DNA from: Lutibacter sp.
GTDB taxonomy: Bacteria > Bacteroidota > Bacteroidia > Flavobacteriales > Flavobacteriaceae
DNA: 38,114 nucleotides
Direction: 5' to 3'
Assembly (NCBI RefSeq): GCF_013041805.1
Contig: NZ_JABDRI010000038.1
Coordinates: 1 to 38,114 of the forward strand
The position numbers and the translations under genes are program-made. Positions 28,231-38,114 of this stretch are shown here, piece after piece. The number at the start of each line of letters is the position of its first letter. Positions within the stretch are counted from its first letter, which is position 1. The notes beneath the pieces are model-generated. The model was not told the DNA's origin. It worked only from the letters and a program-made list of their open reading frames with translations, and ran no database searches.

Positions 28231-29271
28231 ATGCGCATAGAAACTGGATTAAAATTAGGCTTTAAAGATGTAATGATTCGTCCAAAACGATCAACATTAA
28301 GCTCTAGATCTCAAGTTGATTTAAATAGAAAATTTACTTTTTTACATAGTAAACTCAAGTGGAATGGAGTTCCTATCATGGCGGCAAACATGGATACGGT
28401 TGGTACTTTTGAAATGGCAAAAGAATTAGCAAAACATAAAATATTTACAGCTATTCATAAGCATTACTCGTTAAAAGATTGGAAAAAATTTATAGATTCA
28501 TCTACATCAGATATAACCGATTATTTTGCCGTTAGTACTGGAACAGGAAAAGATGATTCAGCAAAACTTTTAGCAATTTTTAAACAACATCCTCAAATTA
28601 AATTTATTTGCATTGATGTAGCAAATGGTTACTCCGAACATTTTGTGAATTTTGTAAAAAAAACAAGAGAACAATATCCAACTAAAGTAATTATGGCCGG
28701 TAATGTTGTTACTGGTGAAATGGTTGAAGAATTATTACTAGCTGGGGCTGACATTATTAAAGTTGGCATTGGACCAGGTTCAGTTTGCACTACTCGCGTA
28801 AAAACAGGTGTGGGCTATCCACAGCTTTCAGCAATTATAGAATGTGCAGACGCTGCACATGGTTTAGGTGGTCAAATAGTATCAGATGGGGGTTGCAAAG
28901 TACCTGGTGATATTGCCAAAGCTTTTGGTGGTGGAGCAGATTTTGTGATGCTTGGCGGAATGCTTGCAGGACATACAGAAAGTGGAGGAAAAACAGTTAA
29001 AATAGACGGTGAAAAATTCAAACAATTTTACGGAATGAGTTCTGAAACTGCCATGAACAAACATGTTGGTGGTGTTGCCAATTATAGGGCTTCTGAAGGA
29101 AAGACGGTTGAAATTCCTTATCGAGGTGAAGTAGAACATACTGTACAAGATTTTTTAGGTAGTTTACGGTCTACGTGCACGTATGTTGGAGCTAAAAGAT
29201 TAAAGGAACTGACAAAAAGAACAACTTTTATAAGGGTGCAAGAACAACACAACGAAGTGTTTTCTAAATAA
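28231..29271 (+). CDS. guaC: GMP reductase
   Basis: GuaC converts GMP to IMP with NADPH and releases ammonia, returning guanine nucleotides to the common pool. The 346-residue TIM barrel has the catalytic cysteine C186 ([11 protein letters not shown]), at the same number as in E. coli GuaC, plus [15 protein letters not shown] and [14 protein letters not shown]. Absence of CBS domains separates it from IMP dehydrogenase. It sits 14 bases behind the nucleotidase pair, which would deliver nucleosides, so the three may form a purine-salvage unit. Confidence 0.94.
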
Positions 29272-29311: not shown

Positions 29312-29986
29312 CTATTCATTTTCTTTGGTATCCGTTATCTCATTTCCAAAAATCATAGAGCGAAATATTAAATATTGAGCTAACACATAAGTAAACATGA
29401 TGACAATTTTATTAAAATGCTCTTCGAAATAAAATTTATCTATTGCTAATACTGAGTCTGATAACATAAAAACAATAGCTCCTAAAAACATTAATAATGA
29501 TTTTCTTGATTTATTATTCATAAAATCAATTAAAGAAACTACGCCTAATGTTGAAATAGTTAATCCATAAATTATTACAGGTATAAGCATTTCATCAAGC
29601 GAATTTTTTAAAGTAAAAATCAACAAACTAAATACTATAAAAAATGGAATAATTGAAAATATAATTTTTAAAACAGAGTACTTTTGAATACGAGATAATA
29701 CAATCTTTATAAATAAAAAATGAGCTATTAAAAATGAAACCAATCCAGTAATAAAAAATAGTTCTCCTTCAAACATCAATAAAACATCTCCCAAAAATGA
29801 AAATCCTAAAGCAAATAAGTACCATTTCAATCTTTTTTGTACAGAAAATGTATATAAAAAGAGTAATGATAAAATAATTAACGGTTTAAAAATATATCTG
29901 AGAAATGGTATTTCTAAAATAATTCCTATAATATCTAAAATTGATACAAGTACAAATACAAAAAAGGTAACCTTAATTTTATCCAT
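29312..29986 (-). CDS. YhhN family membrane protein (lysoplasmalogenase-like)
   Basis: About 224 residues and seven or eight hydrophobic segments, with FLGDVLLMFEG near residue 70 and FMLSDSVLAIDKF near 175, the conserved acidic motifs of the YhhN/TMEM86 family. Mammalian TMEM86B is a lysoplasmalogenase; the activity in bacteria is less certain. The ATG at 29986 is chosen, 10 bases after the cytochrome stop; an in-frame ATG farther up would overlap that gene. It is probably co-transcribed with the 12-heme cytochrome. Confidence 0.8.
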   Translation of the reverse strand: MDKIKVTFFVFVLVSILDIIGIILEIPFLRYIFKPLIILSLLFLYTFSVQKRLKWYLFALGFSFLGDVLLMFEGELFFITGLVSFLIAHFLFIKIVLSRIQKYSVLKIIFSIIPFFIVFSLLIFTLKNSLDEMLIPVIIYGLTISTLGVVSLIDFMNNKSRKSLLMFLGAIVFMLSDSVLAIDKFYFEEHFNKIVIMFTYVLAQYLIFRSMIFGNEITDTKENE

Positions 29987-29996
29987 TATAAATTTA

Positions 29997-31892
29997 TTAA
30001 TCCCACGCAGGCAAAACACAATCTTCACTTAATCTATTTAATAAAGGCTGAATACCCTTAATTAAACTTTCTTGCATTAGTTTAGAATCATCTTTATGAC
30101 ATTTTAAACAAGCTCCTACAAATAATAATTTTTTTTGTTCTTCAATGGTAAATGGCCTAAAATCTAATCTCGTAGAGTTTATGACACCCTTTTCTGTTTC
30201 ACCTAAAAATGGAATCCAAGCATCTTCAGGCAAATTATCATTTGGATTTAAAGCATACTCCGAGGTGAATGACCATTTCCCAATTCCATTTTCAATAGTA
30301 TACGTTAATTCTCCTTTTCCATACCCTAAAGTTGCAGAATTAGAATGGCACGACTTACAATCTCTAACTATACTAGTTGTTGTATGTGGTGAATTTGGAG
30401 CGTATAACCTATGAAATGAAACATCAGTGCCTATTTCTTTTCCTGCATAACTACCCTTATCAATAGTCATAATCATGCCAGGTATAGCAGGTTCAATGTG
30501 ATCTCCTTCCTTGGTTGAACGAACTCCCATAGCAGGAATTGAGGAAGAAAATTCAGCTACATGCTCTTTCCATTGCCCCTTCCCATATTTTTTATCTAGT
30601 AAATCAAAAGCTCTTGGTTCATCTTTATCAAATTCATTATGACAACCTATACAGCGAGATGTCCAAGAAGAATGACACGTAGCACAACTCACATTTTGAT
30701 GAGCATTATCTCTAGAACAAATTTCAGGCTGAGGATTCAATGGATGAAGTACACCATCTTTTTTTCCTATCAAAAAAGCATTGCCTTCAGCATCTATAAA
30801 TGTGTTTACCAAAGGATGATTATCTTTTTTAACAGCAATCATTTCTTTATCATAATGTTTATAATCTCTATGCAAAAAGACTAAAATACTTTCGGCATCT
30901 AAAGAATCATAGGATATGGTGTTTGGCTTTTCTTTAAAATGACAATCTGCACATTGTAAAGTAACCGCTTGTTCTTCATGAGCATATTTTTTACCTGTAC
31001 CCATAACTTCATGCGAAGAATGGCAATCTATACATAACATTCCTTTTGTATGGTGTATATCTTCTTCAATATATTTATAAACACGCTTGTCTTCAGCAGT
31101 TTTATAACCGTTCAAATTTTTAATTTCATCCTCATTTAACATGGTTTCTTGCCAACCTTCGTAATTAGTTGAAATTCTACTAGAACGACTATGACAACCA
31201 TAACAATGTTCATTTTTAACAAAAATATCTGTTGATGGATGAAACTTTGGTAACTCCATTTTATCTGAAGACATATAAGTAGTTAAATCAGTTTTAGCCT
31301 CTTCAGAATAATTTAAATGACACGCATTGCAACCTCCTCCTCTACTCATTTCCGTAATCTCTCCAAACTCTTTTTTCTCAGCACCTAAATGACAGTTTGC
31401 ACATAAATCACGCATATGCTTATCTGCAGGAGAATATTTTAAATCTTTAATATGGTAATGGTAATCTGGAGAATCTGATTCACCAAATATATATTTATCA
31501 ACAGCAACTAGACCACTATTAGTAGTCATTAATGAATTTTCAATTTTAGATAATTCGTTTGGATGACACTTTCCACAAGTTTCAGCAGCATCTGATAAAT
31601 TTCCTGGTATTAGAACCATTCCTTTATGTGAATCTTCTTTGTTTAATGTATTTGGATTTCCCAAATGACAACTAATGCAACCAATTAATTCGGGATTATG
31701 ATACTCCGAATATCCTTTTGTATTTGAATGGCAACTTAAACAAGATTCTTCATCAATGTTATCAATTTTTACATATTCTATTTTCTCATTTGAATTAGAA
31801 CTAAAATATGTTTCATTTTTCAAATAAAAAACACTAATTAAACCAAAAATGAGTAGTGTAAAAAAACCTGTTTTTATATATTTAATTTTCAT
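29997..31892 (-). CDS. dodecaheme cytochrome c, membrane-anchored
   Basis: A 631-residue protein with an N-terminal helix (residues 8-24) that serves as a signal or anchor, leaving the bulk in the periplasm. Twelve CxxCH haem sites start at C51, C72, C106, C164, C188, C230, C287, C314, C403, C414, C512 and C595. The gap between the tenth and eleventh sites (about 95 residues) is a separate, less haem-dense segment. Two other cysteines (C392, C625) lie outside the motifs. I do not match it to a named family. It is divergent from a molybdoenzyme operon, so it likely trades electrons with it or carries them onward. Confidence 0.9.
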   Translation of the reverse strand: MKIKYIKTGFFTLLIFGLISVFYLKNETYFSSNSNEKIEYVKIDNIDEESCLSCHSNTKGYSEYHNPELIGCISCHLGNPNTLNKEDSHKGMVLIPGNLSDAAETCGKCHPNELSKIENSLMTTNSGLVAVDKYIFGESDSPDYHYHIKDLKYSPADKHMRDLCANCHLGAEKKEFGEITEMSRGGGCNACHLNYSEEAKTDLTTYMSSDKMELPKFHPSTDIFVKNEHCYGCHSRSSRISTNYEGWQETMLNEDEIKNLNGYKTAEDKRVYKYIEEDIHHTKGMLCIDCHSSHEVMGTGKKYAHEEQAVTLQCADCHFKEKPNTISYDSLDAESILVFLHRDYKHYDKEMIAVKKDNHPLVNTFIDAEGNAFLIGKKDGVLHPLNPQPEICSRDNAHQNVSCATCHSSWTSRCIGCHNEFDKDEPRAFDLLDKKYGKGQWKEHVAEFSSSIPAMGVRSTKEGDHIEPAIPGMIMTIDKGSYAGKEIGTDVSFHRLYAPNSPHTTTSIVRDCKSCHSNSATLGYGKGELTYTIENGIGKWSFTSEYALNPNDNLPEDAWIPFLGETEKGVINSTRLDFRPFTIEEQKKLLFVGACLKCHKDDSKLMQESLIKGIQPLLNRLSEDCVLPAWD

Positions 31893-31932
31893 AAATAAAT
31901 TGTTGGATCAAATTTACAATAAATAAATTGTT
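31891..31932. repeat. 14-bp direct repeat at the cytochrome start
   Basis: ATAAATAAATTGTT occurs at 31891-31904 and again at 31919-31932, with starts 28 bases apart. The first copy overlaps the cytochrome start codon and the second lies between its -7 and -33 elements. Confidence 0.7.
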
Positions 31933-31940
31933 AGGAACAA
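31909..31940 (-). promoter_or_regulatory. promoter of the dodecaheme cytochrome gene
   Basis: On the minus strand TTG (31940-31938), 21 bases and TAAATTTG (31916-31909) match the consensus exactly. The start codon at 31892 is 16 bases downstream, so the leader is very short. Confidence 0.6.
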
Positions 31941-31952
31941 TTCAATAATAAA

Positions 31953-31968
31953 TGTTAACGTTATGACA
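31953..31968. promoter_or_regulatory. Crp/Fnr-like site upstream of the cytochrome promoter
   Basis: TGTTA-N6-TGACA fits TGTnA-N6-TnACA in all specified positions. Its edge is 12 bases upstream of the cytochrome's -33 element, a usual place for an activator. It overlaps the palindrome TAACGTTA. Confidence 0.4.
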
Positions 31969-32042
31969 TCTAAAGAATTAACTATTTTTTTAAAATATTT
32001 TGCTACTTTTATCACATAAAAACCTTCGCTAGCACCTTAAAA

Positions 32043-32121
32043 TGCTACAAATGTTACATTACATAATTTACATAGGTGACATTTGTCATATTCTAGATTA
32101 CCTCATGTAAGTAACTTTACC
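32043..32121. promoter_or_regulatory. cluster of three Crp/Fnr-like inverted repeats before the molybdoenzyme operon
   Basis: Three near-matches to TGTnA-N6-TnACA: TGCTA-N6-TTACA (32043-32058), GGTGA-N6-TCATA (32075-32090, which also reads as TGAC-N4-GTCA) and TGTAA-N6-TTACC (32106-32121). Start-to-start distances are 32 and 31 bases, about three helical turns. A weak -7-like element TAACTTTA (32112-32119) overlaps the last site. If transcription starts near 32125, the middle site is centred about 42 bases upstream, as for class II activation. Each match is imperfect. Confidence 0.4.
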
Positions 32122-32143
32122 TCAGAAAAAAAATGAATAACTT

Positions 32144-34387
32144 ATGACTACTTCAAGAAGAAAATTTATTAAAATTTCTGCCTTAGGATTAGGAGGTGTT
32201 GCGGCTTCAACTGGTGCAATTAATGTATTAGGAGCTAATTCATATTTAGATGATTTAGTAAAACCAAAAGGCACTAAAGAATTTAAAAGAACTCCTACTT
32301 ATTGCGAAGTTTGCTTTTGGAAATGTGCTGCCTGGACATATTCTAACGAAGAAGGCGAAATTAAAAAAATTATCGGTAATGATAATGACCCCCATTGTTA
32401 TGGCCGTTTGTGCCCAAGAGGAACAGGTGGTGTAGGAATGTATAACGATGAAGATAGACTTAAAACTCCTCTAATTCGTACTACAGTAAATGGAGAAGAT
32501 ACTTTTAGAAAAGCTAGTTGGGAAGAGGCGTTAGATTTAATTGCCTCTAAATTTAAAGATGTAAAAGAAAATTATGGTCCGGAGTCTGTTGCTTTAATAA
32601 AACATGGTTCGCCAGGTGCTCATTTAGAGCATTTATTTAAAGCCTTCGGTTCTGATACTATAGCTGAACCTGCTTATGCTCAATGCAGAGGTCCGCGCGA
32701 AACTGGATTTAAATCAACATTTGGTTCTTGGGTTGGTTCTCCTGAACCAACAGATATTAGAGATACTAAATGTTTAGTATTAATAGGATCACATATTGGT
32801 GAAAACATGCACAACTCACAAGTGCAGGAAATGTCTGATGCTATAGACAATGGCGCTACAATTATAACGGTTGACCCAAGACTTTCGACAGCTGCAAGTA
32901 AATCTGAACATTGGTTAGCAATTAAACCAGCAACCGATATCGCCTTAATGCTCTCTTGGATGAATGTATTAATTGAAGAAGGTTTATATGATAAAGAATA
33001 TGTTGAAAAATACGGCTTAGGATTTAATGAATTAAAAGAACACGTTCAAAAATTCACACCTGAATGGGCTTACGGTATTACAACTATTAAACCAGAAGAA
33101 ATTAGAAAAACTGCAAGAGTTATGGCGCACGCCGCTCCAGCAGTAATTATTCACCCTGGTCGTCATGTTGTATGGTATGGAGATGATTCTCAAAGAGCAA
33201 GAGCAATGGCTATTTTAAATGGCTTATTAGGATCTTGGGGACGTCGAGGAGGTTTCTATTTTAAAGAAAAAATAGCAGTTCCTAAATTTCCACACCCAGC
33301 TTATCCACATCCAAAATGGGGTTGGGAAGAAATAGGAGAAAAATATCCTTTAGCTGAAATGGGTATCACTACTGAAGTTTTAAAAGCTGCGATTCCAAGT
33401 GATGATAATAAATACCCAGTAAAAGCAATGATGATTGCTGGTACTAACATTACAAAATCTATTCCCGATCATAAAATAATAGAAGAAGCGATTGAAGCAT
33501 TAGATTTTATGGTAGTTATTGATACAATGCCAATGGATGTGACTGGTTATGCCGATGTTGTTTTACCTGAATGTACTTATTTAGAACGATATGATGGTAT
33601 TAGATCTGCAACAAATAGAGAACCTTCGATTGCTGTAAGAGTCCCTGCTGTTGCTCCAAAATACGATTCTAAACCAGTATGGTGGATAGCTAAGCAAATT
33701 GGCGAAAGATTAGGCTTAGGAGAATATTTTAACTATGATGACTTTAAAGAAGTTATTGAATGGCAATTAAATAAAATGGGATCTTCATTAGAGGAAATGG
33801 AGAAAATTGGTGTTAAAAATTTCCCTCGTAAATCTGGTTCAATGTATATGAACGAAAATGAAACTTACGAGTTTCCTTCAATGAGCGGAAAGATTGAATT
33901 TTATTCTCAAGAATTAAAAGATTTAGGTTTTGACCCAATGCCAGTATATACTCCACACCCTGAAGCACCTCAAGGATTTTATAGATTAAACTATGGTAGA
34001 GCACCAATGCATACCTTTAGTAGAACTGCAAATAACCCAAATCTTAATGACTTAAAAGATGAAAATAATTTGTGGGTAAATCCTAAAGTTGCAAGGATAA
34101 TAGGTTTAAAAACCGGTCAAGAAGTTTGGCTAAAAAATCAAGATGATGTTATTTCTAACTTCTCGATTAAAGTGAGGATTACAGAACGAGTTCGATGGGA
34201 TTCAGTTTATATGGTTCACGGTTTTGGTCACGACAATAAAAAATTAAGTAGAGCTTATGGTAAAGGTATAAATGATACAAAATTAATTTCAAAAGTAGCG
34301 GTTGATCCTATTATGGGTGGAACTGGAATGAGAGGGAATTTTGTAACAATTTTAACTGAAAATCCACATAAAAATATTGAGATATGA
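32144..34387 (+). CDS. Tat-exported molybdopterin oxidoreductase (Psr/Phs/Ttr-like catalytic subunit)
   Basis: The 747-residue catalytic subunit of a complex iron-sulfur molybdoenzyme. A twin-arginine signal opens it (TSRRKFIKISALGLGG). A [4Fe-4S] motif follows at C54, C57, C61 and C90 (ending LCPRG), then the bis-MGD domains. C181 (YAQCRGPRETGF) lies where polysulfide, thiosulfate and arsenate reductase-type enzymes place the molybdenum ligand, so Mo-Cys coordination is likely. The C-terminal dinucleotide domain is intact. It overlaps the ferredoxin subunit by four bases. The YeeE and rhodanese genes behind it favour a sulfur oxyanion or polysulfide as substrate; direction is open. Confidence 0.88.
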   Translation: MTTSRRKFIKISALGLGGVAASTGAINVLGANSYLDDLVKPKGTKEFKRTPTYCEVCFWKCAAWTYSNEEGEIKKIIGNDNDPHCYGRLCPRGTGGVGMYNDEDRLKTPLIRTTVNGEDTFRKASWEEALDLIASKFKDVKENYGPESVALIKHGSPGAHLEHLFKAFGSDTIAEPAYAQCRGPRETGFKSTFGSWVGSPEPTDIRDTKCLVLIGSHIGENMHNSQVQEMSDAIDNGATIITVDPRLSTAASKSEHWLAIKPATDIALMLSWMNVLIEEGLYDKEYVEKYGLGFNELKEHVQKFTPEWAYGITTIKPEEIRKTARVMAHAAPAVIIHPGRHVVWYGDDSQRARAMAILNGLLGSWGRRGGFYFKEKIAVPKFPHPAYPHPKWGWEEIGEKYPLAEMGITTEVLKAAIPSDDNKYPVKAMMIAGTNITKSIPDHKIIEEAIEALDFMVVIDTMPMDVTGYADVVLPECTYLERYDGIRSATNREPSIAVRVPAVAPKYDSKPVWWIAKQIGERLGLGEYFNYDDFKEVIEWQLNKMGSSLEEMEKIGVKNFPRKSGSMYMNENETYEFPSMSGKIEFYSQELKDLGFDPMPVYTPHPEAPQGFYRLNYGRAPMHTFSRTANNPNLNDLKDENNLWVNPKVARIIGLKTGQEVWLKNQDDVISNFSIKVRITERVRWDSVYMVHGFGHDNKKLSRAYGKGINDTKLISKVAVDPIMGGTGMRGNFVTILTENPHKNIEI

Positions 34388-34917
34388 GATATGCAATGGT
34401 AATAGACACATTAAAATGTGTTGGATGTAGTGATTGTGTAGTTGCTTGTCAAACGGAAAACGATGTTCCAGTTGGATATTGTAGAGATTGGATTACTGAA
34501 AGGGTAGATGGGTCTTACCCAAATCTAGAATTAGAGCTTAGATCTGAAAGATGTAACCACTGTGATAATGCACCATGTGTAAGATGTTGCCCTACTGGAG
34601 CAAGTCACATTGTTGATGGTGGAGTTGTAATGGTAACTGAAAATGAATGTATTGGATGTGGTGCATGTATAGAATCCTGCCCTTACGATGCTCGTTTTCA
34701 ACACCCAGATGGTTATGTAGATAAATGTACTTTCTGTCATCATAGATTAGAAAAAGGCCAACTCCCTGCTTGTGTATCAGTTTGTCCAACAAAATGTATG
34801 TATTTCGGAGATTTAGACAATCCAAATAGCGAAGTTTCACAATTATTAAAAAACAGAAAGTATAAAACATTAGCTCCTGAAGCAGGGACTAATCCACATG
34901 TTTTTTACTTAATTTAA
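34384..34917 (+). CDS. 4Fe-4S ferredoxin subunit of the molybdoenzyme (PsrB/TtrB-like)
   Basis: A 177-residue electron-transfer subunit with sixteen cysteines in four groups for four [4Fe-4S] clusters: C12/15/18/22, C57/60/65/69, C89/92/95/99 and C115/118/130/134. This is the DmsB/PsrB pattern. It has no signal peptide of its own and is expected to cross the membrane with the Tat-bearing catalytic subunit. It links the molybdenum site to the NrfD membrane subunit, encoded 10 bases downstream. Confidence 0.92.
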   Translation: MRYAMVIDTLKCVGCSDCVVACQTENDVPVGYCRDWITERVDGSYPNLELELRSERCNHCDNAPCVRCCPTGASHIVDGGVVMVTENECIGCGACIESCPYDARFQHPDGYVDKCTFCHHRLEKGQLPACVSVCPTKCMYFGDLDNPNSEVSQLLKNRKYKTLAPEAGTNPHVFYLI

Positions 34918-34927
34918 AATTAAAATT

Positions 34928-35887
34928 ATGCAAGAAGAATTATTTACAAGTGGAAGAAACATACCACATATAGATCCTTCATTGGAAATTTGGCACTGGC
35001 CAATATCCTTATATTTATTTCTAGGTGGTTTATCTGCGGGATTGTTATTTTTTGCTGCCTTATTTTATATATTAGGTAAGGATAAAGAATACCCAACTAC
35101 TGTTAAAATAGCATCTATTGTTCCGCCTATAGCATTGTCAATCGGTTTATTAGCATTAGTTTACGATTTAACTCATAAATTGTATACTTGGCAGTTATAT
35201 ATGACCTTTAGAATTGAATCTCCAATGTCTTGGGGAGCTTGGGTTTTATTAATTGTAACTCCAATATCTTTTATTTGGACATTTAGTTATTATAGAGAGA
35301 TTTATCCAAGATGGGAACAAAAACTTCAGGTATTTAAAAGATTTAAATTTTTAAATACCGTTGAGAAATTTGCTCAAGATAACAGAATTTACATGGCATA
35401 TGCCTTAATTCCATTAACGCTAGTTTTAGGTATTTATACAGGTATTTTACTATCTGCTTTCAATGCTAGACCGTTATGGAATAATGCAATTTTAGGCCCA
35501 CTATTCTTAGTATCAGGTTTATCAACAGGAGCTGCAGCTATTATTTTATTATCGAAAAATAAATTAGAACAACACACTTTTGGAAAAATAGATTTAGCGC
35601 TGATTATTGTTGAATTAGCCTTAATAGTTCATATGATTATGGGATATTATGCAGGTTCTCAAGTACAACTAGAAGCTATGGAGTTATTAGTAAATGGTGA
35701 GTTTACATTAATGTTCTTCGGTTTTGTAGTAATTCTTGGGCTCATTATTCCAGCAATTATGGAACTTATTGAATTAATTGGCTTCAAAGTTCCTGCAATG
35801 GTTCCAGCTTTACTTGTCCTTCTAGGAGGGTTAGTATTTAGGTTCGTAATGGTTGAAGCCGGACAAATAACTAGATTCCTTTATTAA
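34928..35887 (+). CDS. NrfD/PsrC family quinone-reactive membrane subunit
   Basis: The 319-residue membrane subunit of the complex. It has about eight to nine hydrophobic helices and opens with the family pattern IWHWPISLYLFLGGLSAG. Such subunits bind menaquinone or menaquinol and exchange electrons with the ferredoxin subunit at the periplasmic side. With the two preceding genes it forms a complete A-B-C respiratory module. Spacing is 10 bases on either side, which supports one operon. Confidence 0.9.
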   Translation: MQEELFTSGRNIPHIDPSLEIWHWPISLYLFLGGLSAGLLFFAALFYILGKDKEYPTTVKIASIVPPIALSIGLLALVYDLTHKLYTWQLYMTFRIESPMSWGAWVLLIVTPISFIWTFSYYREIYPRWEQKLQVFKRFKFLNTVEKFAQDNRIYMAYALIPLTLVLGIYTGILLSAFNARPLWNNAILGPLFLVSGLSTGAAAIILLSKNKLEQHTFGKIDLALIIVELALIVHMIMGYYAGSQVQLEAMELLVNGEFTLMFFGFVVILGLIIPAIMELIELIGFKVPAMVPALLVLLGGLVFRFVMVEAGQITRFLY

Positions 35888-35897
35888 AAAGTAACTT

Positions 35898-36425
35898 ATG
35901 AAAAATAATCAAAAAAATAGACACGTATATTGGAACCCATACTTTGGTGGTTTCCTCCTAGGAATTTTAATCTTATTTACTTTTTATATAACTGGTAGAG
36001 GATTAGGAGCAAGTGGAGCAATGAAAAGTAGTGTTGTAACAATAGTTGACACTGTAGCACCAACACATGCCGAAAACAACACATATTATAGTAGATTTAT
36101 TAATGAAGAAAAATCTCCAATGAATACTTGGTTAGTATTTGAAGCATTAGGTGTTTTAATTGGCGCATTTTTGTCTGGTGGATTAACTGGTAGAATAGGT
36201 TGGAGAACACAACACTCACCTAAAATAACTCCAAAAAGAAGGCTAGCTTTTGCTTTGGGTGGAGGAATTTTATTTGGGCTTGGTGCTCAAATTGCACGAG
36301 GATGCACAAGCGGTGCAGCATTAAGTGGTATGGCGGTATTGTCAACAGGTGGCTTTATAACAATGCTAGCCATTTTTGGTTCTGCATTTGCGTTTGCTTA
36401 CTTTTTTAGAAAAAATTGGATTTAA
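35898..36425 (+). CDS. YeeE/YedE family sulfur transporter, half-size (first of pair)
   Basis: A 175-residue membrane protein with an N-terminal helix (17-33) and helices near 78-96, 117-133 and 143-168. C136 in the ARGCTSG motif corresponds to the sulfur-relay cysteine motif of YeeE/YedE transporters. YeeE (TsuA) moves thiosulfate inward. Full-length proteins carry two such halves in one chain, and here the second half is the next gene. The polar segment at about 48-75 is unusually long for the family. Confidence 0.85.
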   Translation: MKNNQKNRHVYWNPYFGGFLLGILILFTFYITGRGLGASGAMKSSVVTIVDTVAPTHAENNTYYSRFINEEKSPMNTWLVFEALGVLIGAFLSGGLTGRIGWRTQHSPKITPKRRLAFALGGGILFGLGAQIARGCTSGAALSGMAVLSTGGFITMLAIFGSAFAFAYFFRKNWI

Positions 36426-36446
36426 TTAAATAAAAAATAAAAATAT

Positions 36447-37037
36447 ATGGGACCATTAATTCCTAACGGAGTAATTCCTGCAGAGTGGGATAGTATAATT
36501 GCCATTTTAATTGGTATTGTTTTCGGATTTGTTTTAGAATCATCTGGATTTTCATCTTCCAGAAAATTAGCTGGAGTATTTTACGGCTATGATTTCGCAG
36601 TATTAAAAGTGTTTTTTACCGCTGCATTAGTATCATTAATAGGTATGTATTACATGGATTATTTAGGCTATGTAGATATAAACCAAATGTATGTTCACCC
36701 TACATATTTATGGGGAGCAATTATTGGAGGTGTAATTATGGGATTAGGTTTTGTTACTGGAGGTTTTTGCCCCGGAACAAGCCTATGTGCAGTTGCAATT
36801 GGTAAAATTGATGCTATAGTTTATGTTGTTGGTATAATGATAGGAGTATTTATTTTCTCCGAATTATTTGTATTATTTCAACCATTATATGAGGGGTCAT
36901 TTTTAGGAAATATAACACTTGAAGATTCTTTAGGTGTCAATCCTTACTGGTTTGTATTTATATTCACCATCATTGCAATTGTATCGTTTGTAATATCTGA
37001 TATGATTCGTAAAAGAAATAAAAAAATATTTTACTAA
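36447..37037 (+). CDS. YeeE/YedE family sulfur transporter, half-size (second of pair)
   Basis: A 196-residue membrane protein with about five helices. C108 and C114 lie in GGFCPGTSLCA, the other conserved cysteine motif of this family. ESSGFSSSRKLAG near residue 31 is a further family signature. With the preceding gene it should make a complete two-part transporter for thiosulfate or another sulfane-sulfur compound. It is encoded 21 bases after its partner and 15 before the rhodanese gene. Confidence 0.87.
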   Translation: MGPLIPNGVIPAEWDSIIAILIGIVFGFVLESSGFSSSRKLAGVFYGYDFAVLKVFFTAALVSLIGMYYMDYLGYVDINQMYVHPTYLWGAIIGGVIMGLGFVTGGFCPGTSLCAVAIGKIDAIVYVVGIMIGVFIFSELFVLFQPLYEGSFLGNITLEDSLGVNPYWFVFIFTIIAIVSFVISDMIRKRNKKIFY

Positions 37038-37052
37038 TATAACAATAACACA

Positions 37053-37712
37053 ATGGTTAAAAAAAAGGTAGCAAAAGTTTTAGCTTTTAGATATATGATT
37101 CTTGCCGGAATACTAGTTATACTTGCTGGTGGGTTAGTTTTATTACCTAAATACGAAAAACATGAAGGTATTAAAACAGAGCAACTTCTAAGCAACATAA
37201 TTAGCCCTGAAAGATATATTTCAACAGACAATTTAGCTGACAAATTAATAAATCAAGATCCTTCTTATTTATTAATTGATGTTAGAGATGAAAAAAGTTT
37301 TAATAAATATACACTTCCAAATGCAATTAACATTCCTTTGGCTAAGTTACTTGATGAAGATTCAGAAATGTATTTAAATCAAGGTCAATATGATGTAGTA
37401 CTATTTTCAAATGATAATTTTTATGCAGATCAGGCCTGGATATTATGTAATAGATTAGACTATAAAAATCTACATGTATTAAAAGGTGGTGTCAATGAAT
37501 GGTATAATACGATTATTAATCCATTAAAACCAGCTGAAACAATGCCAGCTGAAGCATTTGAGCTATATACATTTAGAAAAGCTGCGAGTATGTATTTTGG
37601 TGTTGCTTATCCTGAACAGTTTAAGACTGTTATTAAAAAAGCACCTCCAAAACCTAAAAAGGTAATTACGGTTAAAAAGAAAAAGAAAGCACCAGCAGAA
37701 GGTGGTTGTTAA
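37053..37712 (+). CDS. membrane-anchored rhodanese-like protein, catalytic Cys replaced
   Basis: A 219-residue protein with a basic N-terminus, one helix (about 14-31) and a rhodanese fold at about 58-155 (LLIDVRDEKSF, LPNAINIPL, HVLKGGVNEW). The charge pattern puts the domain in the periplasm. Where active rhodaneses have Cys in a C-x-x-G-x-R loop, this reads LFSNDNFY, so S119 replaces Cys. The C-terminus is lysine-rich (VKKKKKAPAEGGC) and ends in cysteine. It is unlikely to act as a classical sulfurtransferase and may bind a sulfur species or the complex instead. Confidence 0.85.
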   Translation: MVKKKVAKVLAFRYMILAGILVILAGGLVLLPKYEKHEGIKTEQLLSNIISPERYISTDNLADKLINQDPSYLLIDVRDEKSFNKYTLPNAINIPLAKLLDEDSEMYLNQGQYDVVLFSNDNFYADQAWILCNRLDYKNLHVLKGGVNEWYNTIINPLKPAETMPAEAFELYTFRKAASMYFGVAYPEQFKTVIKKAPPKPKKVITVKKKKKAPAEGGC

Positions 37713-37739
37713 TTTTAAACACTTTACAAAAAACTCTTT

Positions 37740-38114
37740 ATGAAAGAATTAGAAAAAACCAAACGGATATCAATAGCTGGGACGCTTTTCATATTGATAA
37801 TACTTATAGCTGTTTTATCATATGAACGACCTAAACATTTATACAAGGTTAATAGTGCTGCTACACTAGAAAAAATAATCACTGCAGACTATTTTGTATC
37901 ATTAGATGAAATTGAAAACCCTAATTATATTTTAGTTGATGTAAGAGATCAAATTGAATATGAAAAAGGGCATTTAGAAAATGCAATTAATATTACCACT
38001 ACCGAAATATTAAGCGATGATAATACAGATATTCTAAACGAAATTGTAGAAAAAGAAAAAGTGGCTCTCTTATATGGAAAAAATCCTAATGAAGTAAATG
38101 GTGCTTTTTTAATG
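37740..38114 (+). CDS. second membrane-anchored rhodanese-like protein (partial)
   Basis: The frame starts at an ATG 27 bases after the previous stop and runs off the window after 125 codons. It has an N-terminal helix (about 11-28) and the start of a rhodanese domain (YILVDVRDQIEYEKGHLENA). The active-site strand reads VALLYGKNPNEV, so glycine seems to stand in place of the catalytic cysteine. It is a likely paralogue of the preceding protein. A second domain or a C-terminal cysteine may lie beyond the edge. Confidence 0.82.
   Translation, partial: MKELEKTKRISIAGTLFILIILIAVLSYERPKHLYKVNSAATLEKIITADYFVSLDEIENPNYILVDVRDQIEYEKGHLENAINITTTEILSDDNTDILNEIVEKEKVALLYGKNPNEVNGAFLM

Follow-up and report, generated by a model that had tools for sequence, protein, structure and literature searches.

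The locus at the end of this stretch of DNA raises the question of what two rhodanese-fold proteins that lack a catalytic cysteine could contribute to an operon for a sulfur-type molybdoenzyme. The stretch, hereafter the window, is an entire contig (C41; 38,114 bases) of a 2.81 Mb Lutibacter-like draft genome (G000). Eight genes were confirmed between position 29997 and the contig end (Table 1). Seven lie on the plus strand, namely a molybdopterin catalytic subunit (A), a 4Fe-4S subunit (B), an NrfD-type quinone subunit (C), two halves of a YeeE channel (Y1 and Y2) and two rhodanese-fold proteins (R1 and R2), and a 12-haem cytochrome diverges from them on the minus strand. The gaps from A to R2 measure -4, 10, 10, 21, 15 and 27 bases, and such short spacing makes a single operon plausible. 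We lean slightly towards reading this operon as a quinol-linked PsrABC-type sulfane-sulfur reductase served by a dedicated carrier module, the arms of R1 and R2. Whether these proteins form a new class of sulfur carrier is, in our estimate, evenly balanced. In such a class the reactive cysteine would have moved from the rhodanese loop to the tip of a swinging arm at the C-terminus, in convergence with SoxY, and the carrier would be coupled to a split YeeE and exchanged among at least three enzyme systems in Bacteroidota and on one Gemmatimonadota plasmid.

We first consider the rhodanese-fold proteins themselves. At the thresholds used, R1 and R2 matched only Rhodanese in Pfam, and the SoxY domain (PF13501) was matched by neither. 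The AlphaFold model of R1 (mean predicted local distance difference test, pLDDT, 85.3) and that of a full-length R2 relative (L034; mean pLDDT 83.8) returned rhodanese-domain proteins as top Foldseek matches, which for R1 was 3gk5 (template modelling score by target, 0.80). The last 38 residues of R1 were modelled with low confidence, in keeping with a flexible arm. It was also noted that the models of both proteins begin with a helix with a positive end, which resembles a membrane anchor.

Relatives were gathered through a contig scan with A, in which at least 565 were confirmed and the best 80 loci were kept. Tail counts refer to the 73 of these loci in which R1 was called, no R1 being called in the other seven. 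The column counts and the 29-row alignment described here were made before or without two adjusted rows (R2 of L048 and R1 of L103, both ending in GGC). The catalytic-loop column was a cysteine in 0 of 73 R1 and 0 of 69 R2 sequences, and a cysteine within four columns of that position was found in 3 of the 69 R2. The identification of R1 and R2 as ordinary rhodaneses was ruled out on the absence of this loop cysteine. At the other end of the protein, a terminal Gly-Cys follows a lysine-rich stretch in all 73 R1 (70 GGC, 3 EGC) and a lysine-rich tail in 67 of 70 R2, the ends nearly always reading -EGGC. Four columns were invariant among 29 chosen R1 and R2 rows, all of which carry the tail: D76 and R78 from the rhodanese DxR motif, and G218 and C219, the final glycine and cysteine. 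Only one of 65 other rhodanese open reading frames of at least 270 residues in the loci ends in a cysteine (L066, beside an R2 without its tail). The preliminary description had proposed paired rhodanese-fold carriers. The fold has held, but the role of an ordinary rhodanese carrier has not, because domains without the loop cysteine cannot act in that way; the likely sulfur-carrying group is the C-terminal Gly-Gly-Cys, which that description overlooked.

The arms of R1 and R2 were found to resemble each other within an operon. When the 15 residues preceding the last three were compared across 67 loci, the tails of R1 and R2 that share a locus were 77% (0.773) identical and those taken from different loci 50% (0.499), a difference reached in 0 of 10,000 permutations. 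The similarity of the rhodanese domains was equal within and between loci (96.6 versus 96.1; 23 of the 67 loci). Codon agreement at identical tail residues was 64% against the 55% expected from codon usage, which suggests that it is mainly the protein sequence that keeps the tails matched, as though the two arms had docking partners in common. Recent gene conversion as the sole cause of the matched tails was rejected on this codon identity, and a partial contribution from it is possible. Chance or low-complexity drift of the tail was ruled out by the permutations, by the terminal cysteine being kept amid divergence, and by the near absence of such an ending among the 65 other rhodaneses.

We sought to further assess the distribution of tailed rhodaneses by running an R1 and R2 profile against 395 Bacteroidota genomes, the window's own included. 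Since the scans scored only the best first-look candidates (up to 2 A, 7 R and 4 octahaem genes per genome), all genome counts are lower bounds. A Psr-type gene was recorded in 43 of the 395 genomes and an octahaem gene over the cut-off in 54. Among 65 R homologues of at least 60 bits, 29 lay within 7 kb of A, 30 lay within 7 kb of an octahaem tetrathionate reductase, and 6 were near neither. Two of these six sit on contigs that are separated from the rest of the operon (C52 of the window's genome, and the 3.4 kb contig G110:C20 with Y1, Y2 and R). The remaining four represent a third setting: beside an ExtH/SseA-like sulfurtransferase stand Y2, accompanied by a called Y1 in two cases, and an R ending in MGC or FQC. 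This third setting was also encountered with both YeeE halves on a Gemmatirosa plasmid (Gemmatimonadota), identified by tblastn of plasmids, where R ends in RRRGC. The octahaem setting has the order octahaem cytochrome, cytochrome b, Y1 and a Y2-R fusion protein. Its octahaem cytochrome scored 590 bits (cut-off 375) and 438 bits to 1sp3, its cytochrome b is PhsC-like (110 bits; cut-off 204), and in the octahaem loci that were read (L190 to L197, L207 and L209) the fusions finish with GGC, in some cases followed by one more residue. The octahaem tetrathionate reductase had no match in the window's genome.

The terminal cysteine was retained across these settings. From the scan and the fetched loci, 71 distinct homologues of at least 60 bits with a stop were compiled (rows identical over their final 120 residues counted once), of which 57 end in cysteine, 12 have it in the penultimate position and 2 have neither. 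The R2 of the window, cut by the contig end, was treated as open and stands outside this count and outside the 35-hit subset below. The penultimate cases end in GGCG, GGCA, GGCS or GGCT, and 6 of the 12 belong to a pair of related genomes (L178 and L180) from a different family of the order, where KAVSGGCG closes R1, R2 and the tandem rhodanese alike. The two exceptions were a paralogue of ExtH-like type (L179) and a reading frame interrupted by several stops (L233). The profile includes the tail, a small bias that counts against the result. It is met by the 35 stop-bearing hits whose profile match stops by column 205 of 219, for which GGC was irrelevant to being found; the cysteine was kept in 34 of them.

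The enzyme beside these carriers was then examined. A carries a twin-arginine motif (RRKFIK) at residue 5 and, among solved structures, matched Thermus PsrA (2vpw) at 621 bits, the next reaching 173. The cysteine of its YAQCRGPRE stretch aligns with that of SLCTAPRE in 2vpw, which we take to be the molybdenum ligand. Against curated models it scored 464.6 bits for PhsA (NF012032; cut-off 694), compared with 153.6 for ArrA (cut-off 1600) and 27.5 for TtrA (cut-off 1750). B has 19 cysteines and 4Fe-4S domain matches, and C matched NrfD at 2.7e-48. A Tat-exported (twin-arginine translocated) A, a 4Fe-4S-rich B and an NrfD-type C in one operon make up the layout of the PsrABC/complex iron-sulfur molybdoenzyme (CISM) sulfur reductases. 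The divergent cytochrome contains exactly 12 CXXCH motifs, as do 58 of 61 relatives longer than 550 residues, the other three having 11, and in 57 of the 65 loci with enough flank it is found upstream of A at no more than 3 kb. Its best NCBIfam match was ExtM (NF040943; 226.6 bits, under the 800-bit cut-off), a protein with 12 haems according to the part of the source available (PMC5877670).

The two YeeE halves each retain one of the cysteines reported as indispensable in TsuA, Cys91 and Cys293, in the available portion of PMC11582611. The only cysteine of Y1, Cys136, aligns with Cys293 and Cys108 of Y2 aligns with Cys91, so that the separate N- and C-halves have the hallmark of a PmpAB-type split YeeE. 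Full-length TsuA models (NF052577 and NF041049) gave 36.3 and 22.4 bits against a 400-bit model, scores that fall under the cut-off and come from halves only. Y1 and Y2 could jointly make one YeeE channel.

The whole gene set, or a set cut by a contig end, recurs in the 80 loci, and the association is on this ground not attributable to chance. Among the hosts are Flavobacteriaceae such as Lutibacter, Polaribacter and Maribacter, together with Saprospiraceae, Cyclobacteriaceae, Bacteroidales and a metagenome-assembled genome labelled Chlorobiota, and the closest named relative among the matches listed was Lutibacter sp. B1, with an A 88% identical. Both YeeE halves follow A in 63 of the 66 loci with enough flank, and a rhodanese gene follows it in all 66. 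The occurrence is patchy, as A was detected at an E-value of 1e-100 in 32 of 100 near genomes (the window's own included) and in 2 of 48 genera. Several expectations of the preliminary description were borne out by these results: a sulfur-linked, quinone-connected A-B-C module, a 12-haem divergent cytochrome, to which its closeness to ExtM can be added, and the conservation of transporter and rhodanese genes beside A. Nor was the other outcome named there as refuting observed, since A was not seen inside a clade of known non-sulfur function, in a tree whose deep forks stay open and which lacks several of the requested references. Its split YeeE within an undescribed gene set was correct as to the two half-genes and incomplete in that such a split is a known kind, PmpAB, as seen in the available text of PMC11582611.

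Many loci continue with two tandem rhodaneses that, in those read, keep a CYSGQ/CYTGQ-type active-site loop. Many also hold an ExtI-like porin (its cluster occurs in 30 of the 80 loci) and Crp/Fnr regulators. In the window's genome the tandem rhodaneses, the porin and the regulators lie on other contigs (C52 and C44). The porin of a relative (L034) scored 51.6 bits for ExtI and has a 65% identical copy at G000:C44:726-1766, and an ExtH-like sulfurtransferase in another relative (L104) scored 93.9 bits. Molybdenum-cofactor genes and a TauE-type sulfite exporter adjoin one locus (L056), and their clusters are present in 6 to 8 of the 80 loci (the exporter in 8). As separate observations, a MerR-family regulator stands directly upstream of A in the two distant loci tested (L174, 3562-4002; L173, 11897-12364), and several Flavobacteriaceae carry Crp/Fnr regulators with a GDTCAIS..NC stretch at the other end of the locus. 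A contig labelled Candidatus Gracilibacteria (L082) has a copy of A that is 75% identical and looks like a case of misbinning.

From these features a working mechanism can be proposed. A, exported through its Tat signal, would occupy a periplasmic position, resting on B and on C, the quinone subunit. The N-terminal helix would hold R1 and R2 in the inner membrane, and its positive end suggests that the rhodanese body is periplasmic, on the same side as A. The cysteine-less body may serve as a scaffold or docking surface, and the working group would be the C-terminal Gly-Gly-Cys on a lysine-rich arm of about 38 residues, with a terminal thiol that could bind sulfane sulfur as a persulfide or S-thiosulfonate. 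The arm might then swing among the mouth of the split YeeE channel, the intact tandem rhodaneses (encoded next to the operon or at a distance) and the molybdenum site of A. At this last site the bound sulfur would be reduced with menaquinol electrons passed through C and B, so that sulfide is released and the thiol becomes free again. The YeeE channel may take sulfur straight off the arm instead of transporting a free anion, and the 12-haem cytochrome may form a bridge between the complex and further acceptors or donors in the periplasm. In other members of the phylum, an arm of this type would work with the octahaem tetrathionate reductase. The least certain step is the reductive direction, which is suggested by the kinship of A with Thermus PsrA and by the company of the octahaem enzyme.

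Several observations weigh against the arm as a general sulfur carrier of this reductase. The last residue is the sole cysteine in 46 of 69 R2 but in only 26 of 72 R1, and a second cysteine (position 132 in the window) is present in 39 of 72 R1. Three R2 lack the tail: it is missing in L062, sits in another frame in L071, and was lost in L066, where a downstream tandem rhodanese ends in -EGGC. The R1 tail finds its best match, alone or in a tie, in the R2 tail of its own locus in just 34 of 67 loci. The YeeE halves are absent beside R in six loci (L090, L092, L093, L109, L111 and L113), which indicates that the arm can do without YeeE in the operon. Below 60 bits, the cysteine is present in 7 of 17 distinct homologues and missing from 10, and of the 29 hits between 49 and 60 bits, 25 are near neither enzyme; many of these weaker homologues are probably ordinary rhodaneses. 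Lastly, the deep placement of A is insecure, as a 28-row tree left the deep forks open where long branches meet, with no TtrA, SoeA or ArrA row and few function-tested references.

It also weighs on this side that an R within 7 kb is lacking for 17 of the 43 A genes and for 25 of the 59 octahaem genes. Family f32, probably Chlorobia, accounts for 14 of these 17 A genes and 13 of these 25 octahaem genes. Of the three R-less A genes outside f32, one belongs to the split G110 contig, and another (G232, L186) has in its vicinity a weaker R-like protein that ends in NEGC. SoxY is common in f32, which contains 43 of the 45 genomes with SoxY over the cut-off. Genomes with SoxY and genomes with R overlap in 1 of 395, where 6.6 would be expected; a replacement of SoxY by R is confounded with kinship given the concentration in f32, and this pattern was not used as proof. 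It was separately noted that two f32 loci (L176 and L177) have an A-B-C set of approximately 44% identity without YeeE halves or tailed rhodaneses.

The same carriers may work in the opposite direction, with the complex oxidizing sulfane sulfur or sulfide into menaquinone as a supplementary electron donor system of marine heterotrophs, and we regard this as a credible though clearly less probable alternative. Many of the named hosts are marine Flavobacteriaceae, usually grown aerobically, and Polaribacter and Maribacter among them are usually regarded as aerobic; for such hosts oxidation or detoxification fits as well as respiration, a further point against the reductive reading. SoxY, the nearest functional analogue, works in oxidation, and the TauE-type exporter gene near L056, with its cluster in 8 of 80 loci, would fit the release of sulfite. 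However, the nearest enzymes (PsrA, PhsA, octahaem tetrathionate reductase and the PhsC-like cytochrome b) are reductive, and SoxY had no match in the window's genome.

It is rather unlikely that the terminal cysteine is a tether or assembly handle, forming a disulfide to a YeeE half or to the enzyme, and not a sulfur carrier. Docking would suit the fusion of R with Y2 and the matched basic tails, but the thiol is kept while its neighbours vary (GGC, EGC, GGCG/A/S/T, MGC and FQC), and the tail occurs on different rhodaneses. We consider it improbable that the system handles selenite or tellurite in the manner of the Geobacter ext cluster, in which loss of extI lowers the reduction of both, according to the available part of PMC5877670. 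The gene list of that cluster, as given in the same portion of the paper, names neither a molybdoenzyme nor YeeE. The ExtM-like cytochrome, the ExtI-like porin of L034 and the ExtH-like sulfurtransferase of L104 are what recommend this idea, but their scores all fall under the curated cut-offs (800, 150 and 200). That the Gly-Gly-Cys, for all its extreme C-terminal position and invariance in the chosen rows, is a sorting or lipid-attachment signal appears very improbable, since we know of no such C-terminal signal, the N-terminal helix already resembles a membrane anchor, and in the fusions a multi-pass YeeE half precedes the GGC and would make a second anchor superfluous.

Table 1. Positions of the sulfur locus and its parts within the 38,114-base window.
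Feature	Position	Strand	Basis
Divergent c-type cytochrome with 12 haems, distantly related to ExtM	29997..31892	-	12 CXXCH; ExtM 226.6 bits
Divergent intergenic region common to cytochrome and A, 251 bases	31893..32143	.	Gene coordinates
A: Tat-exported PsrA-like molybdopterin catalytic subunit	32144..34387	+	621 bits to Thermus PsrA 2vpw; PhsA model 464.6 bits
B: 4Fe-4S electron-transfer subunit (PsrB/NrfC type)	34384..34917	+	Pfam, NCBIfam; 19 Cys
C: NrfD/PsrC membrane quinone subunit	34928..35887	+	PF03916, 2.7e-48
Y1: C-terminal half of YeeE/TsuA channel (PmpA-like)	35898..36425	+	Sulf_transp 175-308 of 310; Cys136
Y2: N-terminal half of YeeE/TsuA channel (PmpB-like)	36447..37037	+	Sulf_transp 8-150 of 310; Cys108
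R1: putative membrane-anchored rhodanese-fold protein without catalytic Cys	37053..37712	+	AlphaFold, Foldseek, catalytic column
R1 arm: residues 182-219, lysine-rich, low-confidence model, 38 residues, 11 Lys/Arg	37596..37709	+	AlphaFold model, sequence
Gly-Gly-Cys, last three residues of R1	37701..37709	+	G218, C219 invariant in 29-row R1 and R2 alignment
R2: second Cys-less rhodanese-fold protein, cut by contig end	37740..38114	+	Remainder with GGC tail on contig C52

The remainder of R2 was located at the end of contig C52 (71900-72268, minus strand), which repeats the last 127 bases of the window exactly. It terminates in KKKKKAPAEGGC, the same twelve residues as the end of R1. The second tandem rhodanese was observed twice in the window's genome, as copies that are alike but not identical, each at a contig end (L129 1-840 on C52; L130 3-599 on C44), and the assembly therefore seems to have broken within a duplicated stretch. 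Downstream of the R2 remainder on C52, past one opposite-strand gene, lies a further cytochrome, Fe-S and NrfD-like cluster (L170, 3330-9788). It comprises a cytochrome with 6 CXXCH, a ferredoxin-type Fe-S protein, an NrfD-like protein (25% identical to C) and small cytochromes, with no molybdoenzyme in the stretch read. Upstream of the 12-haem cytochrome in the window, a GMP_reduct_1-type GMP reductase (28231-29271) and an adjoining YhhN-family gene (29312-30028) were recorded, the former seemingly unrelated to the locus.

If the carrier reading holds, the Y2-R fusion with its SoxY-like GGC tail would make the hand-over of sulfur from carrier to YeeE directly testable in one polypeptide. The system would also offer a functional handle on sulfur metabolism in Bacteroidota, with a simple sequence mark by which to find it, namely a rhodanese domain without the loop cysteine together with a terminal GGC. 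A literature search, covering selected passages of mostly open-access papers, found none describing this gene set or GGC-tailed rhodaneses, nor any account of such proteins being coupled or fused to YeeE halves or shared by three enzyme systems.

Each component is of a described kind, including the Psr-type enzyme, the PmpAB-type halves and the ExtM-like cytochrome. The YTD and MOLY clusters of sulfur disproportionators share with this operon a YedE-type transporter with sulfur transferases and a molybdoenzyme, respectively (PMC12998232, in the part available). An assignment to either was rejected because the gene content does not fit: YTD has TusA and DsrE, neither of which is among the genes of this operon, and MOLY is listed there as A and B subunits with a chaperone and without an NrfD subunit (PMC12998232). 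A paper on sulfur in cable bacteria describes YeeE, rhodaneses and PsrABC, and the term GGC is absent from the accessible portion of its text (PMC13047784). With the Geobacter extHIJKLMNOPQS cluster the locus shares the 12-haem cytochrome, and its relatives share porin and ExtH-like sulfurtransferase homologues, whereas here the scores fall under the family cut-offs and a molybdoenzyme and YeeE are added. Y1 and Y2, like PmpAB, are separate halves with both conserved cysteines, but they are longer (175 residues for Y1 and 196 for Y2, versus about 130) and are coupled or fused to a GGC-tailed rhodanese. The octahaem tetrathionate reductase (1sp3) shares the YeeE and GGC-rhodanese module in other Bacteroidota, and as an enzyme is unrelated to A. 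PsrABC of Thermus thermophilus (2vpw-2vpz) is alike in its A-B-C layout with NrfD, and A is by far closest to it among solved structures; to this plan the operon adds two half-YeeE proteins, two GGC-tailed rhodanese-fold proteins and the 12-haem cytochrome.

For the arm itself, the closest parallels are SoxYZ and Sud. In SoxY, GGC is the functional motif of an arm that carries sulfur in oxidation, and divergent SoxY genes are found beside YeeE/D or octahaem tetrathionate reductase genes in some symbionts, as reported in the available sections of PMC11237559. R1 and R2 share the GGC motif near the C-terminus with SoxYZ and differ in having a rhodanese fold in place of the SoxY fold, a cysteine that is usually the last residue, and a predicted membrane anchor. 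Sud of Wolinella is a rhodanese-fold periplasmic carrier and donor that feeds Psr and holds its cysteine in the rhodanese loop. R1 and R2 are likewise rhodanese-fold proteins, and they differ from Sud by the loss of this loop cysteine and the gain of a cysteine at the tail.

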